From assembly GCF_000372485.1 (NCBI RefSeq), contig NZ_AQVA01000001.1, forward strand, positions 186,001 to 250,000: 64,000 nucleotides of DNA. Reading direction: 5' to 3'. The notes under the pieces are model-generated. The model searched no databases and had not been told where the DNA came from. It saw nothing but the letters and a program-made list of their open reading frames with translations. The position numbers and the translations under genes were made by a program. Every line of letters starts with the position of its first letter. The first letter of the stretch is position 1. The stretch is from Oenococcus oeni DSM 20252 = AWRIB129 (lineage in GTDB: Bacteria > Bacillota > Bacilli > Lactobacillales > Lactobacillaceae). Positions 42,450 to 63,537 of this stretch are shown here, one piece after another.

Positions 42450-43820
42450 ATGAAAAAAATACTGGAATTATTTGTATCAATAGCGAGCCAACCCGCCATC
42501 CTTGTTGCCTTGATATTAATGGTTGGATTGTTGCTTCAAAAGAAAAAGGCTAATGAAGTTGTCGCAGGTACAATTAAAACCTTCGCCGGTTTTCTTGTAT
42601 TAACCGGTGGTGCAACTATTTTGAAAACTGCCTTGGCACCCTTTGCAAAAATGTTTCAATTCGCCCTACATGTTCAAGGTGTTGTTCCGTCCAATGAAGC
42701 AGTCGTTGCGATTGCTTTAGTAAAATACGGAACTCCAACTGCTTTAATTATGCTAACAGGAATGATCGTGAATATTTTGTTAGCCAGATTTACAAGATTT
42801 AAATATATTTTCCTGACCGGTCAAGCGATGCTTTATATGTCTTGCCTATCTGCAGTTATTTTAATTTCTGCAGGTATGGGTGATGGCTGGCAAACAATTT
42901 TATTCGGTGGAATATTCGAAGGAACATTGCTTACTATTACACCAGCTCTTTGCCAGCCTTTTATGCGCAAGATTACAAAAAGTGATCAAGTTGCGATGGG
43001 CCATACCGGTAATATCGGCTATGCATCAGCTGGATTGATTGGAAAACTTTTTGGGGATAAAAGTAAGAGTACTGAAGATCTTAATATCCCCAAAAGTTTA
43101 GGGTTCTTGAGAGATTCTACTGTTTAGATTGCTCTTTTAATGAGTGTTGTTTATGTCATCTTGGCAATTGCCACCGGTCCGAACTATATTGAAAGCAAAT
43201 TAAGTGGTGGCACTAACTACATTGTTTATTCAATTATTCAGGCAGGAACATTTGCTGCCGGGTTCGTTGTTGTTTTACAAGGTGTTCGTATGATTCTTGG
43301 AGAAATTGTTCCTGCCTTTCAGGGAATCGCCAAGAAACTTGTTCCAAATTCAAAGCCTGCACTTGATGTCCCGATTATCTTTCCCTACGCACCAAATGCT
43401 GTTTTGATAGGTTTCTTTGTCAGCTTTTTTGTTGGAACTCTAAGTATGTTTGCAATGATTGCACTTGGAACGACTGTTATTATTCCAGGAGTTGTTGGCC
43501 ACTTTTTCTGTGGAGCAGCTTCAGGTATTTATGGAAATTCAACTGGCGGAAGACGTGGGGCTGTTTTGGGAGCAACATTTAATAGTTTGCTGATTTCCTG
43601 GTTACCACTATTTATTCTTCCGGTTCTTGGAACTCTCAAATTAGCTGCATCGACTTTTGCCGATACGGATTACCTGATTCCAGGAATATTGGTCGGTAAA
43701 TTAGGTAGCTATGGAGCAATAACACTTGTTTCCGGAATATTGATTTTCCTGCTTGTAGTTGTTTTGACCTCAATCGTATTAAATGCAAAGGACCGCTCAA
43801 AAGTGGTTCCTGCTAAATAA
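42450..43820 (+). pseudogene. PTS EIIC (UlaA/SgaT-like) interrupted by an amber codon
   Basis: A 456-codon frame broken only by TAG at 43125-43127. The first part (225 residues) ends LGFLRDSTV; the second resumes in the same frame IALLMSVVYVILA and runs to 43820. Together they form the 10-12 TM ascorbate permease fold, with GHTGNIGYASAGLIGK in the first part and FCGAASGIYGNSTGGRRGA in the second. The position after RDSTV often holds Ser in relatives, so a TCG-to-TAG change would explain it. Reinitiation at ATG 43140 would yield only half a transporter. Confidence 0.85.
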
Positions 43821-47382: not shown

Positions 47383-48519
47383 ATGAAATTCGTAATCGCA
47401 CCAGATTCATTTAAAGGAAGTCTAACGGCAAAGGAAGCTGCAGACGCAATTCACGAGGGACTGCTGCGCATTTTTCCCCATGCCGAATATGAAATTATTC
47501 CAATGGCCGACGGAGGCGAAGGTACGGTTCAATCCTTGGTTGATGCGACCAATGGCGATTTTGAGACGATTGACGTTTTGGATCCCTTGGAAAAAAAGGC
47601 AAAAGCTCGTTATGGCTTATTCGGTAATCAAAAAACAGCTGTAATTGAAATGGCTGCCGCCAGTGGTATTCAGTTTGTTAATGAGGAGACGAAAAATCCT
47701 TTGATCACAACAACTTTTGGTACGGGTCAGATGATCCTGGACGCCATGCATAAGGGTGCCAGAGAAATTATTATCGGGATTGGAGGCAGTGCAACGACCG
47801 ATGGCGGACAAGGAATGGCGGAGGCACTCGGGGTTCAATTTCTGGATGCAGACGGTCATCCAATCAAGCGCGGTGGAGCTGGGTTGGCTGAACTCGACCA
47901 TATTGATCTTTCCAAAGTCGATCCACTGGTTGCTCAAACAAAAATCAGAATCGCTTCGGATGTTGTAAATCCTTTGGTTGGACCGAAAGGTTCAGCTAGG
48001 GTTTTCGGTCCGCAAAAAGGCGCAACAAGATCAATAATCGAAATCTTGGATAAAAATTTAAAACACTATGCCGATATTATTCAACATGATCTTGGCAAAA
48101 AATTGGCTGATTTTCCTGGAGCCGGAGCCGCCGGTGGCTTGGGAGCCGGCTTATTGGCCTTCACCAATTCTCAAATGGAAAAAGGAGTTGAAATTGTTGT
48201 CGAAATGACGCGTTTAAAAGAACGTTCCAAAGGGGCAGACTATGTTATTACTGGCGAAGGAGCAATCGACTCTCAAACTCAGTACGGCAAAACTCCGATG
48301 GGAACTGCACAGGCTGTTAAGGCAGCTGTTCCCAATGTGAAAGTGGTTGCCTTAGCCGGGAATGTCGGCGATGGAATCGATCAATTGTATCAACTTGGGA
48401 TTGATTCGATCTTTTGTATTTTGCCGGGGGTGGTCAGCTTGGATCAGGCAATTAAGAATGCCAAGAAAAACTTAACGCAAACCGCAGAAAATGTCGGTCG
48501 GTTAATCAGCCAACAATAA
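47383..48519 (+). CDS. Glycerate kinase (GlxK/GarK type)
   Basis: 378-residue glycerate 2-kinase family enzyme. APDSFKGSLTAKEAA at the N-terminus, PMADGGEGTV near 47, GIGGSATTDGGQG near 131 and ITGEGAIDSQTQYGKTP near 287 are family hallmarks. It phosphorylates D-glycerate into lower glycolysis. Co-transcribed with the GntP permease (28-base gap), giving a two-gene glycerate uptake and use operon with its own terminator. Confidence 0.95.
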   Translation: MKFVIAPDSFKGSLTAKEAADAIHEGLLRIFPHAEYEIIPMADGGEGTVQSLVDATNGDFETIDVLDPLEKKAKARYGLFGNQKTAVIEMAAASGIQFVNEETKNPLITTTFGTGQMILDAMHKGAREIIIGIGGSATTDGGQGMAEALGVQFLDADGHPIKRGGAGLAELDHIDLSKVDPLVAQTKIRIASDVVNPLVGPKGSARVFGPQKGATRSIIEILDKNLKHYADIIQHDLGKKLADFPGAGAAGGLGAGLLAFTNSQMEKGVEIVVEMTRLKERSKGADYVITGEGAIDSQTQYGKTPMGTAQAVKAAVPNVKVVALAGNVGDGIDQLYQLGIDSIFCILPGVVSLDQAIKNAKKNLTQTAENVGRLISQQ

Positions 48520-48547
48520 TCCAGGTATCACATTAAAAAGCAGATAA

Positions 48548-48578
48548 AAAACGCCAAAATATCAGTTTGGCGTTTTTT
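48548..48578 (+). terminator. Terminator of glycerate operon
   Basis: AAAACGCCAAA (48548-48558) pairs with TTTGGCGTTTT (48566-48576), with T-run. Confidence 0.9.
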
Positions 48579-48861
48579 AATATCGTTAATTATTTTTTGA
48601 AAATACTATTTAGGCTAAAAAGGATCCCTATTTGACTAAATATAAAATTATTATCCGGTTGTAGCTTTTTATGAAATTTATCTTAATAATTGATTTTTTT
48701 GACTCATAAGTTTTGTTTAAGAAAATAGACAATGAAATATTATTATTTATTAACTATTGACAAAAAATTATTAATATGTTAAGACTCAATAGAAGAAAAT
48801 AGAGATTAAGTTCTTTTCCTGTAGGAAAAATTATCTTATTTATATACGAGAAAGAAAAAAT
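48579..48861 (+). promoter_or_regulatory. AT-rich leader of the XrtG operon
   Basis: No gene. A consensus TTGACA at 48757-48762 is the best -35; the matching -10 is poor (TTAAGA, 16-base spacing). A perfect hairpin TTTTCC-TGTA-GGAAAA occupies 48814-48829 in the presumed 5' leader. The region is markedly more AT-rich than the housekeeping genes. Confidence 0.4.
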
Positions 48862-49458
48862 ATGAAAAAAATTATTGTATTGATAACTTGTTTTTTCGGA
48901 TTTTTTTTGCTTCCAATTGTAGTAGTTCACGCTGACAGTATTTCGAGCGGTTCCGGAATTTTAATTGATGGAAAATTCGACGATTGGTCTGGTAAGCCGA
49001 TGACGGATTTTTACGAAGAAGGAACGAATGGAAACGTTACTTATAAGCTGTCTATGTTGTCAGACGATCAATACCTGTATTTATACGTTAATATGATTCC
49101 TTACGGCGGACATCAATCCGGTCTACAAACTGCTGGATATGTTATTACTATCGGCAATAAGAAATACGATATAAGTTTTCTTAATGTTCCAGGCAACTTA
49201 TCAGCTGGTCAGACGGCCAGCTTCAGTGCAGGTGTGTGGGATGAGACAAGTTACACATATAAAACCAACGGAGTGGGCTATGTAAACGCATATAGTGAGA
49301 CTTTCCCTGCAGACACATCTTTATATCGAAAAGGAACATATACCAATAGTGTAGCTGAAGTCAAAATTCCCATAACGGATTTCAATCTCAGCACAATTTC
49401 AGGTCAATCGATAACACTTGCTAATTCGAATTTGGGTTATCAACATATTACGATTTAA
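48862..49458 (+). CDS. Secreted XrtG-associated substrate protein, lacking its sorting tail
   Basis: 198 residues as read. A signal peptide (cleavage likely after VVHA near residue 24) is followed by an extracellular domain beginning GILIDGKFDDWSG, resembling the carbohydrate-binding-like domain of secreted proteins. TAA at 49456-49458 ends it. The same frame continues for 38 more codons with a typical C-terminal sorting signal, and its original stop overlaps the xrtG start as TAATG. The protein was therefore probably 237 residues and membrane-retained; as written it would be released. Function of the ectodomain unknown. Confidence 0.8.
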   Translation: MKKIIVLITCFFGFFLLPIVVVHADSISSGSGILIDGKFDDWSGKPMTDFYEEGTNGNVTYKLSMLSDDQYLYLYVNMIPYGGHQSGLQTAGYVITIGNKKYDISFLNVPGNLSAGQTASFSAGVWDETSYTYKTNGVGYVNAYSETFPADTSLYRKGTYTNSVAEVKIPITDFNLSTISGQSITLANSNLGYQHITI

Positions 49459-49575
49459 GGTACTAGCACGGGACCTTATATTATTGTGGGAATTGGTTTT
49501 TTGCTTGCTTTGTTTGGATTTTTTGGAATTACTTATAAGAAGAAAAATAATCACGAAAAGATTGGATTTCATTAA
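49459..49575 (+). pseudogene. Detached C-terminal sorting signal (Firmicu-CTERM-like)
   Basis: In-frame continuation after the TAA: GTSTGPYIIVGIG, a hydrophobic helix, then GITYKKKNN and a stop at 49573-49575. A short motif plus TM helix plus basic cluster is the tripartite form of exosortase substrates; the family name Firmicu-CTERM (associated with XrtG) is from memory. Untranslated unless the stop is read through. Confidence 0.7.
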
Positions 49576-50177
49576 TGCTGATTACGACAATAATTTTGAT
49601 TGGGACCATTATATGGGTTTATATCCTGTCAGTTTTAAAACGCGCCAAGTTATCGGCTTTCTATTTTATAACTGGAAGCGTCGGTCTTTTCTTAATTTTG
49701 ATGGCCTTAAGCCGGCCATATGGAATCTGGCTTTTTTCAACGATTGTGACAAGGGGCATTGGTCTTTTCGGGTCTTTAAGTGGAATGTTTACTGCTTTTT
49801 ACAGAGAAAATTTAATCGAGATACAAAATACTCACGATACAATTCTGATGTTTGTCGATTATGAATGTTCCGGAATCATTGAAACGACTGCTTTTTGGAG
49901 TTTGATAGCTTTTTACCCTGTTTACAGTCGCAAAGAAAGAACTATTATAGGCGTCGCTGGAGCTTTGTGGATCTATGCTGCAAATATTTTACGTCTTTTT
50001 GTTGTCGCGACAATTGTCTTTTTTAACGGAAATAAAATATTTTTCCTGGCGCATTCTGTTTTAGGAAGACTTTTCTTTTATATTTTGGTTATAGCCTTAT
50101 ATTACAATGTTTTTACCCGTGCTCATATTATAAAAAACTTTACAGGAAAGTTGATATATAAGGGAGACGAAAAATGA
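49575..50177 (+). CDS. xrtG: Exosortase family protein XrtG
   Basis: 200-residue polytopic membrane protein with the exosortase/archaeosortase active site: Cys98 in DYECSGIIE, Arg140 in AANILRL, and His160 in FLAHSVLGR. Exosortases are predicted transpeptidases that recognise C-terminal tripartite signals and cleave or transfer the protein during surface attachment. XrtG is the Gram-positive subgroup. ATG 49575 overlaps the stop of the original substrate frame; the stop overlaps the next start by four bases. The enzyme itself is intact. Confidence 0.85.
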   Translation: MLITTIILIGTIIWVYILSVLKRAKLSAFYFITGSVGLFLILMALSRPYGIWLFSTIVTRGIGLFGSLSGMFTAFYRENLIEIQNTHDTILMFVDYECSGIIETTAFWSLIAFYPVYSRKERTIIGVAGALWIYAANILRLFVVATIVFFNGNKIFFLAHSVLGRLFFYILVIALYYNVFTRAHIIKNFTGKLIYKGDEK

Positions 50178-51517
50178 GTTTCTTGGATCAAGCATTTGCT
50201 CAAATGGGTTTTTGGATAACTTGGATGCTGATACCGATTATTTTTGAGATAGTCCCGGAATGTCTTTACTTTGTCAAATTAACATTTGAAAGCAGAAAAA
50301 AAAACGACTTAAAGAAACCGGCGAAATTGCCGATTATTTCGATTATTGTCCCTGTTTATAATTCCGAGGAGACACTTTTTAAATGCCTTGGATCAATCAG
50401 TGATTCAAGCTATCCAAACAAACTTATGCAGGTTATCGTTGCTAATAATCAAAGTACTGATAATAGCTTTCAAGTATTCAATAAGGTTCAACAGTCTTTC
50501 TCCAATTTGAGGCTTCAATGGATGAACACCGATAAAGGGAAAGCATCTGCCTTGAATTCGGCTATTTATAATAGTTCTGGCAAATATATTATTAATTTGG
50601 ACAGTGATGGTGTTTTGGAAAAGAATGCACTAATGCGGATGGTTCTTGGTTTTGAAAATAACTCTGATATTGATGCAATGACTGGCACCATTTTAACCGA
50701 AAAAGCAATTATTCAAAATAACAAAAAACCGTTATTGAGATTATTACAAAATAATGAATATTTCGAATACGCTCAGGCTTTTCTTTCAGGAAGAAGTATC
50801 GAATCATCGGCTAATAGGCTCTTCACGATGTCGGGTGCTTTCTCGGCGTTTAGAAAAGAAGTATTATTAAAAACCTATATGTACAATACTCAAACAGTGG
50901 GTGAAGACACAGATATGACTTTTCAAATTCGCAGTAAATTAAAAGGGCGGGTGGCTTTGTGTACTGATTCTTTTTTCTACGTAGACCCGATTGAAAGTCT
51001 CGATCAGCTGTATATTCAAAGACAAAGATGGCAGCGTGGCGAAATCGAAGTCTCGCGTTCCTTTATGAGCGACCAGCTGCATCTCGATAAGTTTTTTAAA
51101 AATTTTATGGTTCGACGCTTAATGATTGACCACACCTTTGTTTTTCCACGAATGATTTGGATGTTCGGAATTTTTGTTTTGGCCTACCTTGGTTACTCAC
51201 CAATTGTTTTGCTTTTATCAGTCATTTTTATGTATTTGCTATACGTCTTTGATTCATTTCTGAATTTTATCAACGTTAGAATGTTTCTAAAAAAATTTGA
51301 CGAAGAGCGATCGTTCTATAGCAGAAAATGGTGGATTATGTTTACGATGCCTTTATACAACTTAATCTGTTCTTTTATCAGGCTAATTGGAATTATAAAC
51401 AGTATCACTCTACCAATCAAATGGAAATCCAAAACGTTTAAAGAAGAATGCGCGGATATAAAAAAAGTTGTTCGGAGTGATTTTAAGGGAATGAAAGACA
51501 AAAAGGGAAACAAATAA
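50174..51517 (+). CDS. Family 2 glycosyltransferase, exosortase G-associated
   Basis: 447 residues. A short N-terminal membrane segment, then a GT-A domain with IISIIVPVYNSEETL near 54, the DSDG metal motif near 148 and the processive-type QRQRWQRGE near 277, then two to four C-terminal membrane segments. It resembles membrane synthases that build and extrude polysaccharide. In XrtG loci it is a constant partner, suggesting that it glycosylates or supplies the glycan for the exosortase substrate (inference). Confidence 0.88.
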   Translation: MSFLDQAFAQMGFWITWMLIPIIFEIVPECLYFVKLTFESRKKNDLKKPAKLPIISIIVPVYNSEETLFKCLGSISDSSYPNKLMQVIVANNQSTDNSFQVFNKVQQSFSNLRLQWMNTDKGKASALNSAIYNSSGKYIINLDSDGVLEKNALMRMVLGFENNSDIDAMTGTILTEKAIIQNNKKPLLRLLQNNEYFEYAQAFLSGRSIESSANRLFTMSGAFSAFRKEVLLKTYMYNTQTVGEDTDMTFQIRSKLKGRVALCTDSFFYVDPIESLDQLYIQRQRWQRGEIEVSRSFMSDQLHLDKFFKNFMVRRLMIDHTFVFPRMIWMFGIFVLAYLGYSPIVLLLSVIFMYLLYVFDSFLNFINVRMFLKKFDEERSFYSRKWWIMFTMPLYNLICSFIRLIGIINSITLPIKWKSKTFKEECADIKKVVRSDFKGMKDKKGNK

Positions 51518-51886
51518 ATGACACGTAAAAAATATACTTACAAAATGAGATCTTACATTAATGCCAGCCATGCAATTCGTTGGGAGGCCGGGATTGGTTC
51601 TGAGCACCCCCACACTTGGGAGATAATTTGTGAAATCGTTAGTTCTAATGATCATATGATTAAATTTGAAGATATTGAGGAAGTTATTACTGAGACAATC
51701 AGTGGCTTATCAGGCAAATTTCTCAATACAATCGCCCCTTTCGACAAAATCAATCCGACACTGGAAAATTTAACAAATTATCTCTTCGATATGATCACTG
51801 ATTCCTTGAAAAAAATAAACTGTAAATTGATAAGAATTGAAGTAGGAGAATCTCCGACACGTTTTTACTGTATATCTTTAGATTGA
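51518..51886 (+). CDS. 6-pyruvoyl-tetrahydropterin synthase-like protein, exosortase G-associated
   Basis: 122 residues with the T-fold. Metal-ligand histidines appear as NASHAIRW near 18 and HPHTWE near 30-32, the pattern of PTPS/QueD enzymes. The catalytic Cys region is not obvious, and no other pterin or queuosine genes are nearby, so the role is probably specific to the XrtG system. ATG directly follows the glycosyltransferase stop (TAAATG). Confidence 0.82.
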   Translation: MTRKKYTYKMRSYINASHAIRWEAGIGSEHPHTWEIICEIVSSNDHMIKFEDIEEVITETISGLSGKFLNTIAPFDKINPTLENLTNYLFDMITDSLKKINCKLIRIEVGESPTRFYCISLD

Positions 51887-51955
51887 TTATCAAGAAAGCG
51901 GGAAAAGTATGGTTAATTTTCCTATCGTGGAATTGCTTAAAGAGGAGATGAATTG

Positions 51956-53495
51956 ATGAAAAGAAAGGGACTATTTTCTTTGGGAAATAGAATTATTTTT
52001 TATATTTTCAATTTTTTTATTTTTTTAACGCTCTATTTTGCTATCGCATCTCCCAATTTAACACTTGGCGATACTCCTGCCGGAAATCGAACGACATGGA
52101 TTTCAGTTGTCTTTTTACTTTTTCTGTTGACAATCAGTCTTGCGATTTTCGTAAATGAAAAGTTACGCAATGTTTTTCGGTATATTTTTATCAAACGCGC
52201 TTTATTCAGTTCGATTGTTATTTTTGTTCTAGTGATCCTGTTGCAAATTATTTTTGTCGAGCTGACTCATCCCTCGATTGGTTTCGATGCAGGTGCCATT
52301 CATTCGGCATTGACGGATACTAAAAGTCGAGAACTACAAGCCTATTATAGTTTGAGCACGAACAACATTAATTTGATGCTACAGCAACACTATCTTGCGA
52401 AATTCTTCTCCAATAGTTCATGGTTGCTTTTTGATAACATTAATCTCTTTTTGGTTGATTTATCGGCAGTTTTCAACGCTTTGATTGTCGCGGTTCTGGA
52501 TAGAAGAAAAATAAGCAATGTTTTGTATATTCAGTCGATTTGGTTGGCTCTATTTCCAATGATCTTGGTTCCTTACTCTGATACTTGGGTTTTGCCATTT
52601 GTTTCGCTTTATTTGTTGAGTTATTGTATTGTTTTCCATTCAAAATTTAATGGTATCCTTCGAGTATTTTTAGCGATTAGTGGCGGGAGTGTTTTAAGTG
52701 CATCATACTTTATCAAACCGTCGGCTATTATTCCTTTTATTGCTATTTTCCTTGTTGAAATACTTTATCTATTTAAAAAAGATGATCGAAGAAAGAAAAA
52801 ATACGCGTTTATTATTTTAATTTCCTCTCTTTTTTTCATTGTTTCAACTGGAATTACTTACCGTTATCTGCAAAATGCGAATAATTCTGAAACCTATATG
52901 AAAATAGATAGAAGCAGGACGATGCCGGCAATTCATTTTATTAGCATGGGGATGGCTGGAGATGGCGGCTATAACAAAGAGGATAATTTGGCCATGGCTG
53001 CTCGACCAAGTAAAAAGGAAAAAGTTGAATACTCTAAAAGAAAGATTAATCAGCGTTTAGCAAGAATGGGTATTTTTGGATATATAAAGTTTTTATTTCA
53101 TAAACAAAATAAGAACTCATCCGATGGTAGTTTTGCTTGGTTGATAGAAGGGCATTTTATGTCAGCAAAGGTTGCTTCTAAGGGTCTTAAGGCTTTTTGT
53201 TCAAAGTTTTGTATATCCGAATGGCAAACATTTAGCGGATTTTAGATATATTGCGCAATTTTGGTGGATAATTTGGCTCTTTATAATAGCTTTTGGATGG
53301 CGATACAGAACAAAGTTTTCACAAGTTCTGCGGTTGGCAATCGTTGGTGGATTTTTGTACCTGCTCATTTTCGAAGGAGGAAGAAGCAGATACATGATCC
53401 AATTTTTACCAGTCTACATAATCGTTGCTTCACTTGCTTTAAACGATGTTGTTGAAATGATTGGAGAAAAAATGAGTTGGCTGAAGGAAGAGTGA
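51956..53495 (+). pseudogene. XrtG-associated multi-pass membrane protein, frameshifted
   Basis: The first frame covers 51956-53245 with about nine membrane segments in a glycosyltransferase-like (ArnT/mannosyltransferase-type) layout. After GLKAF it reads out of frame to a stop. The other frame resumes VQSFVYPNGKHLADFRYIAQFW and runs to 53495 with three or four more segments. Removing one T from the TTTTT at 53193-53197 gives a single 512-residue protein. Function unknown; it is the last gene of the XrtG operon. AGAGGAG lies eight bases before ATG 51956. Confidence 0.78.
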
Positions 53496-53531
53496 TTTTA
53501 TAGAACTTTATTTTTTTCATGAAATAAATTA

Positions 53532-53585
53532 AAAAACAACTAAGATTCAATTCTGATTTGATTAAATCTTGGGCTGTTTTCCTTT
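53532..53585. terminator. Bidirectional terminator between convergent operons
   Basis: An imperfect hairpin (AAACA...AAGATT with AATCTT...TGTTT) is flanked by T residues on the right and A residues on the left, so it can serve both the XrtG operon and the minus-strand kinase operon. Confidence 0.55.
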
Positions 53586-53623
53586 TTATCACTTTAAATT
53601 AAAGAACCTAATTATATTTATAT

Positions 53624-54499
53624 TTACAAACTGCCGCTCTCTTTTTCAACTACTAAACCGGAAAGCCTGTTTGCTAGTATTACAGAATCTTTGAATGACA
53701 TATCTTTGTTTAACCCCGCTAAAATACCGCCACAATGAGTATCGCCAGCTCCGATTGTGTTGATTATCTTATCCTTTTTTTCAGAAGGAATTATGTGATC
53801 ATTTCCATCATAATAATAGCTTCCGTTTGACCCCAAAGTTACAATAACGGGACTTTCTGTTTTTGCATAAATCCTTCTCGCTTTTTCTTCTAGTGAGTGG
53901 CCTTTGGGCATGAAATAATTTGCTTCTTCTTTGTTGCAATTTATAATCACGTTTTTTTTCATTATTTTTTGAATTATTGTTTTAGATATGGAAGAGATGC
54001 GAGGGGATGCATCAAATAATAGTAATGATTCTGGGATACGTTTCTGCAGTTCTTTAAGAATTACCTTGCCTGCGTTTTCATTTTCCATTTCATATCCACT
54101 TAAATAAAAATATTTGTATTCATTAATATTAATTGTCTTGAACCATTCCGTTTTCCAATCTTGTTCAATGCCCTGTATTGTTAGAAAGCTTCTTTCTCCT
54201 CCTGGTTCAATAAAGGAAATATCCCATCCATTGTCATTTCCCCTAACTGGTAATTTTATTGGAATTTTTAATTCTCTCATTTTTTCTTTGATTTGGTTTG
54301 CATAATTTCCCTCACCAACAGGTACAAATAAATCAGTATTAATTTTTTCGTGCTTTAGAGTTCCAAAAACATTAAATGCCGAACCACCTACTACATATGA
54401 TTTGAGATTTCCAGGAATGTCATCACCTGTCTTTGGCAATTTTGGCACATCAACTATTACGTCGACGAAAGCTGCTCCAATTACTAGTGTTTTATTCAT
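53624..54499 (-). CDS. PfkB-family carbohydrate/nucleoside kinase
   Basis: 291 residues of the ribokinase fold. GDDIPGNLKSYVVGGSAFNV near 27 is the N-terminal glycine signature, VTLGSNGSYYY near 222 and NTIGAGDTHCGG near 247 (catalytic Asp) the C-terminal one. Substrate unknown; its operon contains a nucleobase-type permease and an ADP-ribosyl-hydrolase-fold enzyme, which points to ribose, a nucleoside or pseudouridine. Confidence 0.88.
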   Translation of the reverse strand: MNKTLVIGAAFVDVIVDVPKLPKTGDDIPGNLKSYVVGGSAFNVFGTLKHEKINTDLFVPVGEGNYANQIKEKMRELKIPIKLPVRGNDNGWDISFIEPGGERSFLTIQGIEQDWKTEWFKTININEYKYFYLSGYEMENENAGKVILKELQKRIPESLLLFDASPRISSISKTIIQKIMKKNVIINCNKEEANYFMPKGHSLEEKARRIYAKTESPVIVTLGSNGSYYYDGNDHIIPSEKKDKIINTIGAGDTHCGGILAGLNKDMSFKDSVILANRLSGLVVEKESGSL

Positions 54500-54513
54500 A
54501 ATTAACGCTCCTT

Positions 54514-55872
54514 CTAATCACGTTTGTTCATCTTTTTAAGTAAATAAAAAATAAACATAAATAAAATTGCAGTAATTCCGGAAATGAATACTCCCAAACT
54601 GTTATTTCGGAATATACCTTTCGCGAACGGCCCGTTCCAAATTGCATTATTTGTGAATAATAGCCCTATAAGAGTAGCCAAAATCCAAGAAATTATTCCA
54701 TCCCATTTATAATGTATTGGTGAACGGTTTTCCATTAATTTAATGTCATATCCCTTTTTTCTATACATAACGCTGTCACACAAGAATATGGCAACCCAAG
54801 ATGCCAAACAAATACCGAGGAAATTAAGGAAGAGTTCGAAGCTGCTGAGAAAATTTCCGGAAACAAATAAAACATAAATCGGAATTAATATAACGATCGC
54901 ACCATGGATTACAAGTGATGATCTTTGAGATATATTTATTCCGACGGTTGATAGATTAATTCTTGCTGAGCGCAGCGATATTATGCATTGCGGGATCAAA
55001 CCACCCACTGCAACAAGAAAATAAGTAAAACCGAACCAACTTGGCAATACGTTATACATAACTGAAAATGGTTCACTTGCGTTTGCTAAGTTTGGGGAAA
55101 TTGTACTTAATAAGACGCCTCCGGACATTAGGATAAAAAGTGGAATTGATCCACCTAAAGTTGTATTCCAAAATGTGGCGGAAGGTTTAGTATTAGTCTT
55201 TACATAAGCTCCCCAATCAGCTGCAGCCATAGACCAAGAAATGCCTGATCCTGCAGCTACGATACTTATCGCTGGCAAAAAACCTTTGACCCAACTTCCT
55301 GATGGTAGTTGAAAAGCTTCGTTCCAATTAGCTTTAAAGAGGAATATAAATAAAATAACTAGTGTTAATATTCCAAAAATCCAACTTAACCAAGTTTGAA
55401 TTTTGGCCAAGACGTTTTCTTTAAGAAGACCCGAAGCAATGACTAATCCACCAAAGATAGCCAAAGCAATTGCATCAGACAAAGTAGTTTTAGGAATATT
55501 AATTGTTTTGAACATAGCCGTAAGTAAGAGCGTTCCGGTTAAAACGTTCACCGAAACCCAACCAATCATATTTATCCAGGCGATGAAATTCGGAATTTTG
55601 TTTCCGCGGGTCCCATAGGCGGCCCGACTAAGTTTAAAAGTTGTAATTCCTTCTTTTCGCCCGATCATTGCCACCCAACCAGGTGCTGTGAATGAGAGGG
55701 CTCCAATTAAAGCTGCAATAGTTGACTGTATAAATGATAAATGGTAGCTAACAATTATAGCTCCGTAGACGAATCCTAATATTCCGATGTTCGCAGCAAA
55801 CCAGTTGTAAAAAAGCTTACCCGGCGTGAGTGTTTTTTCTGAATTTTGTATCCTGATTGAATCTTCATTCAT
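54514..55872 (-). CDS. NCS1-family purine/cytosine-type permease
   Basis: 452 residues with about twelve membrane segments of the CodB/NCS1 type: WFAANIGILGFVYGA in TM1, GALSFTAPGWVAMIGRKEG near 50, SRAAYGTRG and AADWGAYVK near 217. Imports nucleobases, nucleosides or related heterocycles with protons or sodium. Fourteen bases separate it from the kinase gene. Confidence 0.85.
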   Translation of the reverse strand: MNEDSIRIQNSEKTLTPGKLFYNWFAANIGILGFVYGAIIVSYHLSFIQSTIAALIGALSFTAPGWVAMIGRKEGITTFKLSRAAYGTRGNKIPNFIAWINMIGWVSVNVLTGTLLLTAMFKTINIPKTTLSDAIALAIFGGLVIASGLLKENVLAKIQTWLSWIFGILTLVILFIFLFKANWNEAFQLPSGSWVKGFLPAISIVAAGSGISWSMAAADWGAYVKTNTKPSATFWNTTLGGSIPLFILMSGGVLLSTISPNLANASEPFSVMYNVLPSWFGFTYFLVAVGGLIPQCIISLRSARINLSTVGINISQRSSLVIHGAIVILIPIYVLFVSGNFLSSFELFLNFLGICLASWVAIFLCDSVMYRKKGYDIKLMENRSPIHYKWDGIISWILATLIGLLFTNNAIWNGPFAKGIFRNNSLGVFISGITAILFMFIFYLLKKMNKRD

Positions 55873-55947
55873 TTTCTAGCTCCTTTTCGGAATCTATAAA
55901 ATAATTTCAAAAATTCTTGCGCTGTTATTCATAAAAAATTTTTTTAT

Positions 55948-56946
55948 TTAGTTTTTAAATGAAATTATTTTGTCGCTAAGTTCCTCAATGTTGTGTTGCG
56001 GATTTTTTTTGTCTATCAATTGTTTCCATTCAATTGGAATGCTTGACGCTCCATTTTTAGCACCACAGATTGCTGTGGCCATCGCTCCGATTGTGTCTGT
56101 ATCGCCACCAAGATTTGAACATAGGATCGCACATTTTTGAACATCTTTTGTATAATATGCCGCTGAAACTGCTGCTGGAATGCTCTCCGAAATCATAGTC
56201 CCAGTTCCTAAAGTTTCATAGATTTGTTTGCTGAATTCGTCTTCGTTATTCGCATATTTGTCCGCTATATCAATTCCTATTTCCAGACGATTTTTGTTTT
56301 TGGCAGCCCAAGTGGGGGACCCAAGTTTTAGTCCTTTGTTGTTTGCTTTAATTGCATAATTGATAATGTCATCCCATGAATAATTGGCAATTCCGGCTGT
56401 TACTGCACCAGCGATCATGCTTGCTCCGCTTATTGAAACGTCACTTGAGTGAGTTATTTTTGTGACTTGATATACCATTTTTACCAAATTATCTATTTGA
56501 TTTGTTTCAAAAAGAGATCCAATTGGAGCTATTCTCATTCCAGCCCCGTTAGTCAACGCTTTTTTTGTAACTTCAGTTGGATCTTTTCCTTCTTTAATTA
56601 GAGTGAGAGCGGCTTTGCTGCTTGGTCCTAGAATATTATTTTTCCACGCCCCAACTTTATTAGCCCATTCCATAATGTGCTTAACCAGAATTTCTTGTTT
56701 GGGTTCCCAATGTGCTTCTATTAAAGCATCAAGAATCGCAAAGGCTTGATTTGTATCATCGGTGTATTCACCTCGACTGAAATTCAGCGCAATCTCATTA
56801 TCTTGTGTGCCATCCATGAAATCAGTTATTTTTCCGTCGAATTTTTTTCTAATTTTTTGAATTGGCCATAGCTCAGACGGCATTCCCATTGCATCACCGA
56901 TTGCCTGACCGTATAATGTTCCTAAAATTTTGTCTTTATCTCTCAT
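55948..56946 (-). CDS. ADP-ribosylglycohydrolase (DraG-fold) family protein
   Basis: 332 residues. GTLYGQAIGDAMGMPSE near 12, GEYTDDTNQAF near 61 (first metal Asp pair) and GGDTDTIGAMATA near 281 (second metal site) are the di-Mg centre of this family. Members hydrolyse ADP-ribosyl bonds or other N-ribosides. In an operon with a permease and PfkB kinase it more likely acts on a small riboside than on modified proteins (inference). Confidence 0.88.
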   Translation of the reverse strand: MRDKDKILGTLYGQAIGDAMGMPSELWPIQKIRKKFDGKITDFMDGTQDNEIALNFSRGEYTDDTNQAFAILDALIEAHWEPKQEILVKHIMEWANKVGAWKNNILGPSSKAALTLIKEGKDPTEVTKKALTNGAGMRIAPIGSLFETNQIDNLVKMVYQVTKITHSSDVSISGASMIAGAVTAGIANYSWDDIINYAIKANNKGLKLGSPTWAAKNKNRLEIGIDIADKYANNEDEFSKQIYETLGTGTMISESIPAAVSAAYYTKDVQKCAILCSNLGGDTDTIGAMATAICGAKNGASSIPIEWKQLIDKKNPQHNIEELSDKIISFKN

Positions 56947-56955
56947 CGATTTCTC

Positions 56956-57648
56956 CTAAATTCCAAGAGTGAATTTAAAGCGCGCTTGGTCACTGTATAT
57001 TATGCCGACTTTTTCCATGATTTCAGAATTGGAGTCATATACAAAACCGTTTACTTTCAATAAAGGATTACCTTTTGAGACCCTCAATAAATTACTGATT
57101 TCTTCTTCTGGAGCAACTGGTATGACTTCAAGATTAGCTATCGCTGGATAAGTGTTGTACTTATTTCTTAGGACGTCATATAAAGAACCCTTTTCAAAAT
57201 TATATTGATCCAATCCTGGAAAATCATCTAAACTCAAAATCGATTCGTCGAATGTCAAAGGAGCTATCTCATCATTGATTTTGATACTGCGTAAGCGCTT
57301 GAGAAGCATTTTGTGGCCATTGTCAATTTTCTTTTTTTTAATTAATTTTGTTATTGGAGTTGCCCCAATTTGATGTGCATACTCTGAAAATCCTTTAAAA
57401 TTAAACATCTCTATTTTTGGATGTTTAAATATCACAAACGATCCCTTTCCCTGAACTTTTTCGATTAACTGCATTGTTTCCAAATCTCTTAGAGCCTTTT
57501 GCACTGTCGATCTTGCTGTTCCAAAGAGATTCGCATACTCACTTTCTGATGGCAGTTTTTCTCCAATTTTTCTATTTTTTATAATGTCCATCTGAATGCT
57601 AGAAACAATTTGTTTTCTAGTTGTTTTATTTCCTTTATAAGATTCCAT
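56956..57648 (-). CDS. GntR/HutC-family repressor
   Basis: 230 residues: an N-terminal winged helix (KLPSESEYANLFGTARSTVQKALRDLE, about 37-63) and a C-terminal UTRA ligand-binding domain. It is the first gene of the minus-strand operon and lies directly behind a perfect palindromic operator, so it probably represses its own operon until a substrate-derived ligand binds. Confidence 0.92.
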   Translation of the reverse strand: MESYKGNKTTRKQIVSSIQMDIIKNRKIGEKLPSESEYANLFGTARSTVQKALRDLETMQLIEKVQGKGSFVIFKHPKIEMFNFKGFSEYAHQIGATPITKLIKKKKIDNGHKMLLKRLRSIKINDEIAPLTFDESILSLDDFPGLDQYNFEKGSLYDVLRNKYNTYPAIANLEVIPVAPEEEISNLLRVSKGNPLLKVNGFVYDSNSEIMEKVGIIYSDQARFKFTLGI

Positions 57649-61833: not shown

Positions 61834-63537
61834 TTGATTAAAGCTGATCTAAAAATAATCAATGGCCAAATTTATAACACTTTTACACGTCAGTTCGCTG
61901 CAAAAGAAGTTGCGATTGTCGATGGGAAATTTTTTCAAATAGCAGATAAACTATCCGATGATTTTAAATTTGAAGATATACTGGATCTCAAAGGTTCTTA
62001 TGTTATTCCTGGTTTGATTGATTCGCATATGCATATTGAAAGTTCTATGGCCACGCCAACTAATTTTAGCGAAACTGCGATTCGTTTTGGAACGACAACC
62101 GTTATTGCCGATGCTCATGAGATAGCTAACACGAGCGGCATTAAAGGCCTTAAACGTTTTATGGATCAGCCTTCTTTGATAGATACTTTTTTCGCGATTC
62201 CTTCTTCTGTTCCTTCTACAAATCCCGAACTGGAAACAACAGGTGGAATTATTGATTTAGAGGAAGTTAAGGAATTATTGGCAGATCCTAGAATTATTTG
62301 TCTGGGAGAAGCGATGAATTTTAAAGGAATCACTTCTGAGCCTAATTCTTTAATCAGAAAAATTATTGCTTTATGTCAAAAGAAACGTCCAAGAATGCCC
62401 CTTGAAGGCCATGTACCAAACATTAGTAAAGAAGATTTGGCTAAGTTCATTTTTGCCGGTATTTTATCTGATCATACTCAGCAAACGCCTGCCTTAATTA
62501 AAGAGAAAATTGAGAATGGCATGTTTATTCAGCTCCAGAAAAAATCTCTCAATAAGGAAAATATAGAAACAATCGTTAAGAACCATTTCTACGATTATTC
62601 GGCCCTGGTTACCGACGATACAATGGCCGACGATTTGATCAACGGTCACCTTAATTCTATTATCAAACTGGCAGTGAAATGTGGCTTACCGCTGGAGTGG
62701 GCAATATATATGACAACTTATACACCCGCGCAGCACATGCATTTTCAAGATCGTGGCGTGATTGCTCCCGGCAAAATTGCTGATTTTGTCGTTTTAAACA
62801 ACTTAGATGGTTTCTCTATCAAAAATGTATACAAGAGAGGCGTCCCAATAGATAAATTGTCGATTGATGATGAGAAACCGTTTGCTAGTGAAGAGTATCA
62901 TTCGATTTATGTTCCTAATCGATCAGCTAAAGATTTTACACTTAGAGTTTCAAAAGATCTAAAAAAAATTACTGCTAATGTTATTGAAATAGCTGCTAAA
63001 GGAACATTTACGAAAGCAGTCAAAAAAGAGTTGCTTGTTAAGGATGGTATTGTCGACTGGCAAAAAGCTGGTCTGGCATTATTAGCTGTTCAGGAAAGAT
63101 ATGGCAAAACAGGTCAATTGACTCTTGCTTTGGTTTCTAAATCTATTAATAAAAGTGGCGCAATAGCAACGACTTGGGCTCACGACCACCATAATTTGAT
63201 GGTTTTGGGAACGAATCCTGATTCAATGGCGATTGCTTACGATAAAGTTGCTAGTCAGCAGGGTGGTTATTTAGTTGTTAAGGATAAAGAAATTGTCGCC
63301 AATGTCCAACTGCCGATAGCAGGCATCATAAGTGATGAACCCATTGATATTATTGGTCATAAATTAAAAAAGGTAAGACTGGCAATGAAAGATTTGGGAT
63401 ATGTCAATACCAATGAAATCATGTCTTTGTCGACTCTTTCTTTATTGGTGTCACCTTCGATTAAGGTATCAGATAAAGGTATTTTTGATGTTAAAACTCA
63501 AACTAAAATACCTTTATTGCTGGCAGGGGAAGAATGA
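61834..63537 (+). CDS. ade: Adenine deaminase
   Basis: 567-residue amidohydrolase. DSHMHIESSMATP near 63 and ADAHEIAN near 90 supply metal ligands, EGHVPNIS near 190 and LSDHTQQTPA near 209 further catalytic residues, and the C-terminal TWAHDHHNLMVLG motif near 449 is characteristic of the Ade family. Converts adenine to hypoxanthine and ammonia. TTG start at 61834 behind AAGGAGA. Its TGA overlaps the next ATG. Confidence 0.95.
   Translation: MIKADLKIINGQIYNTFTRQFAAKEVAIVDGKFFQIADKLSDDFKFEDILDLKGSYVIPGLIDSHMHIESSMATPTNFSETAIRFGTTTVIADAHEIANTSGIKGLKRFMDQPSLIDTFFAIPSSVPSTNPELETTGGIIDLEEVKELLADPRIICLGEAMNFKGITSEPNSLIRKIIALCQKKRPRMPLEGHVPNISKEDLAKFIFAGILSDHTQQTPALIKEKIENGMFIQLQKKSLNKENIETIVKNHFYDYSALVTDDTMADDLINGHLNSIIKLAVKCGLPLEWAIYMTTYTPAQHMHFQDRGVIAPGKIADFVVLNNLDGFSIKNVYKRGVPIDKLSIDDEKPFASEEYHSIYVPNRSAKDFTLRVSKDLKKITANVIEIAAKGTFTKAVKKELLVKDGIVDWQKAGLALLAVQERYGKTGQLTLALVSKSINKSGAIATTWAHDHHNLMVLGTNPDSMAIAYDKVASQQGGYLVVKDKEIVANVQLPIAGIISDEPIDIIGHKLKKVRLAMKDLGYVNTNEIMSLSTLSLLVSPSIKVSDKGIFDVKTQTKIPLLLAGEE

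Follow-up and report, generated by a model that had tools for sequence, protein, structure and literature searches.

Five co-directional genes at positions 48862-53495 of a 64,000-nucleotide stretch of the Oenococcus oeni DSM 20252 genome (contig NZ_AQVA01000001.1, positions 186,001 to 250,000; the whole stretch is referred to as the window) are, as judged from their sequences, a broken member of the known exosortase G (XrtG) system. They encode a secreted substrate, XrtG, a family 2 membrane glycosyltransferase (GT2), a T-fold protein resembling 6-pyruvoyl-tetrahydropterin synthase (PTPS-like) and a TIGR03766 protein with a predicted GT-C glycosyltransferase fold. Among the genomes of the bacterial family to which this organism belongs, those with XrtG almost always also encode GGDEF and EAL domains, the domains of the diguanylate cyclases and phosphodiesterases of cyclic di-GMP (c-di-GMP) turnover. 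The link between XrtG and c-di-GMP genes is new here, and no paper connecting the two was found in the PubMed Central (PMC) literature, where most subscription journals are missing. There is about an even chance that the intact XrtG system is a c-di-GMP-controlled cell-surface glycan system, of which the window locus would be a decaying copy.

Because a diguanylate cyclase gene and an EAL gene are located directly upstream of the XrtG operon on the Lactococcus lactis plasmid pBV60, GGDEF and EAL domains were counted over 301 genomes of the family, comprising 58 genomes with and 243 without XrtG. Genomes were scored as positive at E ≤0.001, which applied to 149 genomes for GGDEF (139 over the curated cut-off) and to 134 genomes for EAL (131 over the curated cut-off). 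GGDEF was found in 56 of the 58 XrtG-positive genomes compared to 93 of the 243 XrtG-negative ones (Fisher p 8.7e-18), and EAL was present in the same 56 genomes. The link persisted when the test was stratified, both for genus alone (p 1.5e-8) and for genus plus genome-size half (p 1e-7), the latter test being made without four XrtG-bearing genera, two of which are represented by a single genome and two of which have GGDEF in every genome. Within one genus (g17), GGDEF was encoded in 7/7 genomes with XrtG and in 0/7 genomes without it. PilZ, an established c-di-GMP receptor domain that served as a yardstick, was accompanied by GGDEF in 33/33 genomes.

The two sets of genes are also physically linked. 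Distances were taken from 80 XrtG loci, 77 from genome contigs and three from plasmid records (with 44 loci reaching 20 kb or more), and from a few whole genomes, the latter with the GGDEF and EAL coordinates among the matches listed. Open reading frames (ORFs) of the GGDEF family, detected with a purpose-built profile, occur in 14 of the 80 loci (in 11 with a canonical motif), compared to about 1.4 genes expected; this expectation is rough, as it takes at least 3.4 GGDEF genes per XrtG-positive genome, an assumed genome of 2.45 Mb and about 1 Mb of flanking sequence, and the loci are related and not independent. Either a GGDEF or an EAL ORF was found in 17/80 loci, and all four GGDEF/EAL ORFs that were put through Pfam passed. 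Some of the GGDEF-family ORFs lie in or beside the operon, namely in L016, L052, L054, L056, L057 and L075. An EAL gene follows the PTPS-like gene at 18 bp in L054, 18 bp in L056 and -3 bp in L057, and in L052 the GT-C gene overlaps at its end with the gene of a GGDEF-EAL protein whose GGDEF motif is non-canonical. Diguanylate cyclase (DGC) and EAL are located upstream, as DGC-EAL at 89 bp in L016 and as EAL-DGC at 199 bp in L075, while L019, whose XrtG is the closest relative among the matches listed (59% identity), has a diguanylate cyclase-like gene with the motif GGEEL 302 bp downstream. According to whole-genome coordinates, XrtG, GGDEF and EAL lie within 3.4 kb on one strand in genome G138, and an EAL gene follows the PTPS-like gene in genome G318. 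The 10.9 kb contig of L075 (JAISTD010000016.1), on which the XrtG operon is complete and accompanied by EAL and GGDEF genes, has been assigned to the bin of the methanogen Candidatus Methanovirga australis; it is either mis-binned or the result of a transfer to an archaeon.

In the proposed scheme, diguanylate cyclases and phosphodiesterases would set the level of c-di-GMP, which would promote glycan synthesis by the membrane-bound GT2. Using lipid-linked sugars outside the membrane, the GT-C enzyme would decorate either the glycan or the substrate. XrtG would cut the substrate at or near a GGSTGP signal and transfer it to a surface acceptor, and the CBM9-like domain or domains of the anchored substrate would then tether the glycan to the cell. 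Predictions of this scheme are the direction of control, the nature of the glycan, the site of cleavage, the acceptor, the role of the CBM9-like domain and all of the chemistry. The c-di-GMP receptor could be the degenerate PTPS/T-fold protein or the EAL or GGDEF-EAL proteins that lie flush with some operons, by analogy with PdeB in Lactobacillus acidophilus as presented in the accessible part of PMC6123363.

The residues Cys98, Arg140 and His160 of XrtG, presumably those of the exosortase active site, are invariant in 8/8 aligned sequences. An XrtG-matching ORF of 438 amino acids in L086 (437-1753) has about twice the usual length and is possibly a fusion with another part. In the GT2, the QxxRW motif is invariant in 7/7 sequences. 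Its next-best NCBIfam family is PgaC/IcaA with 127.5 bits, which is under the cut-off of that family, and a profile search against solved structures reaches chondroitin, heparosan and cellulose synthases and, more weakly, hyaluronan synthases. By sequence, the GT2 resembles PgaC and BcsA and is probably a processive synthase. The TIGR03766 protein had been described in an earlier note on this DNA, made from the sequence alone, as a large, broken membrane protein; this is to be corrected to a glycosyltransferase with a GT-C fold, as modelled on the intact Leuconostoc relative in L019. The L019 model (mean predicted local distance difference test score, pLDDT, 88.3) matches ArnT over 313 residues with Z 21.0 and 4.1 A, and its 44 best matches are, by their titles, GT-C-fold proteins or complexes containing one, the next match having Z 4.3. 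An EGGRSRY motif is conserved across 40 aligned relatives (40 of 73 ORFs) and is located on the C-terminal piece in the window. Given the GT-C fold, lipid-linked sugar donors outside the membrane are most likely.

The PTPS-like protein is nearly exclusive to XrtG-positive genomes, as TIGR03112 scores over its cut-off in 53 of the 58 genomes with XrtG compared to 1 of the 243 others. In genome G025, a TIGR03112 protein over the cut-off (C25:17623-17961) is encoded without an XrtG match; this orphan could show the role of the protein on its own. An alignment of the window protein with 33 of 65 ORFs showed the zinc-binding histidine triad to be kept in 34/34 members. The Cys and Asp-His positions that we take to be catalytic in PTPS and QueD enzymes have been lost: the Cys is present in 0/34 members, and of the dyad the Asp is present in 1/34 and the His in 0/34. 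Because of this loss, the sequences make cofactor synthesis by this protein unlikely. Fusions of the PTPS-like domain were found in metagenome bins from five other Bacillota (Table 1), where it forms the N-terminal part of a large protein of about 1000 residues; three of the five fusions were scanned, and in all three the membrane domain PF10131 follows. The fusions therefore point to a partnership at the membrane. In the L085 fusion, part of the zinc motif is gone, as judged by eye. A fold whose pocket accommodates pterin- and purine-like rings in relatives and which is kept without its catalytic residues, the near-exclusive occurrence with XrtG and the membrane fusions make the degenerate zinc-binding protein a candidate for a c-di-GMP (guanine) receptor of a new class, which would relay the signal to the membrane glycosyltransferases, although this proposal has a slim chance of being correct. 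PilZ was ruled out as a general receptor of XrtG systems, being present in only 16 of the 58 XrtG-positive genomes and missing from 40 genomes with both XrtG and GGDEF. In the window genes, neither PilZ nor another receptor domain was found by Pfam.

The encoded substrate lacks the Firmicu-CTERM-type signal, which is encoded in frame behind a TAA stop codon. There the frame continues as GTSTGPYIIVGIG..., matching the conserved GGSTGP-type sorting signal of relatives (alignment of the window substrate with 34 of 70 ORFs), and the TIGR04145 score rises from the value in Table 1 to 190 bits when the frame is read through with the stop as X. Structure prediction of the ectodomain with AlphaFold2 gave a mostly beta model with a pLDDT of 81.8, whose eight best structure matches (Z 7.6-8.9) are CBM9 modules (Z 8.4-8.7), a putative carbohydrate-binding protein, the starch-binding Sas6 and two dehydrogenase/oxidoreductase subunits; the first other match has Z 6.0. 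Several results call for caution: the best Foldseek match has E 0.022 and none is below 0.001, Pfam detects CBM9_1 in 1/35 substrate members (E 0.03), and best Z values of 7-8 are common for models without relatives. For these reasons, CBM9-like is a fold statement of moderate strength, and sugar binding by the ectodomain would follow from it as a prediction. When solved structures were searched by sequence with the substrate profile, nothing meaningful emerged (best E 0.43).

The gene calls of the window agree with the coordinates and calls of the earlier note (Table 1). The genes were scored against the curated cut-offs of the NCBIfam families, and all five pass, including XrtG itself, so that both the XrtG assignment and the five-gene composition proposed in that note are borne out. 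The set has the order usual for XrtG systems. It was also correctly recognized that the substrate and the last gene are broken and the other three intact: the substrate ends at the TAA, the TIGR03766 gene lies in two frames, and the remaining frames are open. Because the other defining features are present despite the signal-less substrate, the locus is filed as a broken member of the XrtG systems.

Table 1. Features of the XrtG locus in the window, and PTPS-like fusion genes in other sequences
Feature	Position	Strand	Evidence
XrtG substrate, truncated	48862..49455	+	TIGR04145 144.1 bits vs 50; N-terminal hydrophobic leader (by eye) and CBM9-like ectodomain (moderate)
In-frame TAA stop at ectodomain/sorting-signal border	49456..49458	+	sequence
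Severed sorting signal, substrate frame	49459..49572	+	GTSTGP motif, hydrophobic stretch, basic tail; C-termini of relatives
Exosortase G (XrtG), open frame	49575..50177	+	TIGR03110 228.1 bits vs 102.75; Cys98/Arg140/His160
XrtG-associated GT2 membrane glycosyltransferase, PgaC/BcsA-like, open frame	50174..51517	+	TIGR03111 641.8 bits vs 363.95; QxxRW
PTPS-like T-fold protein, open frame	51518..51886	+	TIGR03112 148.2 bits vs 69.35; PF01242 57.4 bits vs 22.4
TIGR03766 glycosyltransferase (predicted GT-C fold), N-terminal piece	51953..53245	+	543.5 bits vs 500; profile 1-417 of 496
Same TIGR03766 gene, C-terminal piece, different frame	53172..53495	+	142 bits; profile 409-494 of 496; EGGRSRY
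PTPS-like fusions	L077 374-3421; L085 2031-5081; L089 655-4029; L090 6019-9081; L091 6157-9171		

Several observations weigh against c-di-GMP control of XrtG systems. The co-occurrence tests ignore the tree within genera and include no unrelated patchy gene to serve as a negative control. Some of the co-occurrence may be indirect since XrtG-positive genomes often hold other c-di-GMP targets such as PilZ. Genome G016 has an intact-looking XrtG locus (L064), yet neither GGDEF nor EAL, which speaks against a strict dependence on c-di-GMP. Furthermore, the sequence stretches of 66/80 loci, many of them short, contain no GGDEF ORF. If larger genomes or free-living lifestyles favoured both sets of genes, XrtG could work without c-di-GMP and a locus like that of G016 would be expected, as would the lack of GGDEF ORFs near most loci; such an indirect association is nevertheless distinctly unlikely, as the link remains after stratifying for genus and for genus with size half, and GGDEF/EAL genes are located in or beside the operon at several loci. 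A different product, namely a surface glycoprotein and no polysaccharide, would result if the GT2 made a lipid-linked sugar that the GT-C enzyme transferred to the substrate in the manner of protein O-mannosyltransferases, with XrtG anchoring the product. This kind of O-glycosylation is unlikely but deserves serious attention: ArnT and protein O-mannosyltransferases are good matches to the GT-C model (Z 18.5-21), many long substrates have Ser-rich stretches (e.g. L029, L050, L067, L069), and Gram-negative exosortase systems sort surface proteins according to the available portion of PMC12188702. Its difficulties are the GT2, which resembles PgaC and cellulose synthases and has the QxxRW of processive synthases, and the scarcity of Ser-rich linkers in the window substrate and short relatives. 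The cofactor-modified surface protein suggested by the earlier note would require the PTPS-like enzyme to make a pterin-like cofactor; despite the PF01242 score and the retained zinc histidines, this is scarcely credible with the catalytic Cys and the Asp-His dyad lost from the aligned members.

The breaks in the window locus can also be read in other ways than as decay. The TAA falls precisely on the border of the ectodomain and the signal, which itself contains no further stop, as would be expected if the strain used a programmed stop with readthrough, or a functional soluble form, to make released as well as anchored substrate. The odds of this are very small, given that the codon is TAA, that no other examined substrate has a stop at this place, the four other broken ones being frame-broken inside the ectodomain, and that the GT-C gene is broken too. 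Sequencing or assembly errors in an otherwise intact locus would be conceivable in a draft genome of 28 contigs, but errors are improbable, because the one locus carries two separate lesions and neither GGDEF nor EAL is present in a genome with a completeness rating of 99.9%. The absent signal genes, the signal-less substrate and the split GT-C gene read best as decay.

Decay of this kind is not confined to the window, and as a theme the stop codon does not stand out. The substrate is frame-broken inside the ectodomain in L030, L051, L052 and L066, the GT2 is split in L020, L033, L051 and L092, the GT-C gene is split in L026, L043, L052 and L078, and XrtG carries stops or splits in genomes G085, G213 and G256. 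Decay of XrtG loci is therefore not rare, although some of these breaks may be assembly errors. The linkage of the core genes is otherwise strong: among the 80 loci, a GT2 gene of the same orientation is located within 3 kb in 79, a PTPS-like gene within 3 kb in 63, a TIGR03766-like gene within 6 kb in 62 and a blast-detectable substrate within 4.5 kb in 65. Cut contigs account for several of the misses, and substrates that are divergent escape this search.

The window genome and G016 are the two exceptions among the 58 XrtG-positive genomes, as neither GGDEF nor EAL was found in them. Genome-wide, there is a single match to XrtG and a single match to TIGR04145. The earlier note had proposed to look for other proteins with the same C-terminal signal; the TIGR04145 scan returned no second XrtG substrate, and other proteins were not searched for the bare signal. 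The comparison with sister genomes that it also proposed yielded no sister copy, as there is no XrtG match in the six other genomes of the genus, two of which are only 65-68% complete. In the four of them that have the upstream glycerate kinase gene, the 16-18 kb around this gene contain no match to the five genes. With GGDEF and EAL not found, the substrate ending before its signal and the GT-C gene split, the pathway should not work in this genome, and the substrate, if made, would be released. For Oenococcus oeni, loss of mutS-mutL and hypermutability have been reported, as stated in the accessible text of PMC6498615. All seven genomes of the genus (G000-G006) have only weak matches to mutS1 (best E 1e-40 to 1e-47), none of them over the cut-off, which is passed in 293 of the 301 family genomes. 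These weak matches fit a mismatch-repair-deficient genus with frequent gene decay.

The surroundings of the locus were also inspected. The guanine-plus-cytosine (GC) content of the locus is 0.33-0.37 compared to 0.45-0.46 just upstream and 0.29-0.40 across most of what remains of the 20 kb examined. A horizontal island was rejected as a conclusion from composition, because similarly low GC over most of the 20 kb makes the contrast uninformative. No RNA families were detected at gathering thresholds at 48000-54600. At 42450-43820, a phosphotransferase system (PTS) EIIC-GAT permease is divided over two successive ORFs (matching profile positions 2-220 and 226-394 of 394); it gives two separate matches in the sister genome stretch L103 as well, so that this split may be old or natural. 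An apparent nucleoside/purine salvage group consisting of a PfkB-type kinase, a cytosine/purine permease, an ADP-ribosylglycohydrolase and a GntR-UTRA regulator is located downstream at 53624-57648, and an adenine deaminase-type protein is encoded further along at 61834-63537.

XrtG systems are represented in NCBIfam, for example by LP_RS09090 to LP_RS09075 of Lactiplantibacillus plantarum, as given in the part of PMC12854382 that could be consulted. The window shares the five families and the usual order with these systems and differs from them in the substrate cut before its signal, the split TIGR03766 gene and a genome without GGDEF and EAL. In the same portion of that study, over-expression of the complete L. 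plantarum XrtG set is reported in connection with self-aggregation and interferon induction, which is a correlation, and an exosortase-G-associated GT2 is listed for Levilactobacillus brevis in the available part of PMC8951740. No experiment on the function of an XrtG system was found in the literature. According to the accessible parts of PMC9850573 and PMC12188702, the Gram-negative exosortase/PEP-CTERM systems likewise have a membrane exosortase, a C-terminal sorting signal and neighbouring (exopolysaccharide) glycan genes, whereas XrtG systems have a GGSTGP signal, a Gram-positive host and the GT-C and PTPS-like partners. The gts/dgcA-pdeA c-di-GMP exopolysaccharide system of L. acidophilus resembles XrtG systems in its PgaC/BcsA-like GT2, its c-di-GMP turnover genes and its exopolysaccharide and aggregation phenotypes. 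It has GtsA, GtsB and PdeB, while the available text of PMC6123363 mentions no exosortase, substrate, PTPS-like or GT-C gene. In contrast to c-di-GMP-controlled exopolysaccharide systems, the window genome lacks the turnover genes, both of which are present in 56/58 XrtG-positive genomes. The PTPS-like protein of the window shares the T-fold family match (PF01242) and the zinc histidine triad with PTPS/QueD enzymes but lacks their presumed catalytic Cys and Asp-His dyad.

XrtG is encoded in 58/301 genomes of the family, about a fifth, including the food and probiotic species L. plantarum and L. brevis. The window offers a natural case of such a system in decay, with the signal genes absent, the substrate cut off and the GT-C gene split. 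The link to c-di-GMP makes the uncharacterised XrtG system testable, as the signal can be altered and the surface glycan and the anchoring of the substrate can be watched. If the proposed control holds true, lactic acid bacteria would possess, in addition to the gts type, a further surface polymer linked to c-di-GMP, and its receptor may be one that has gone unrecognised.

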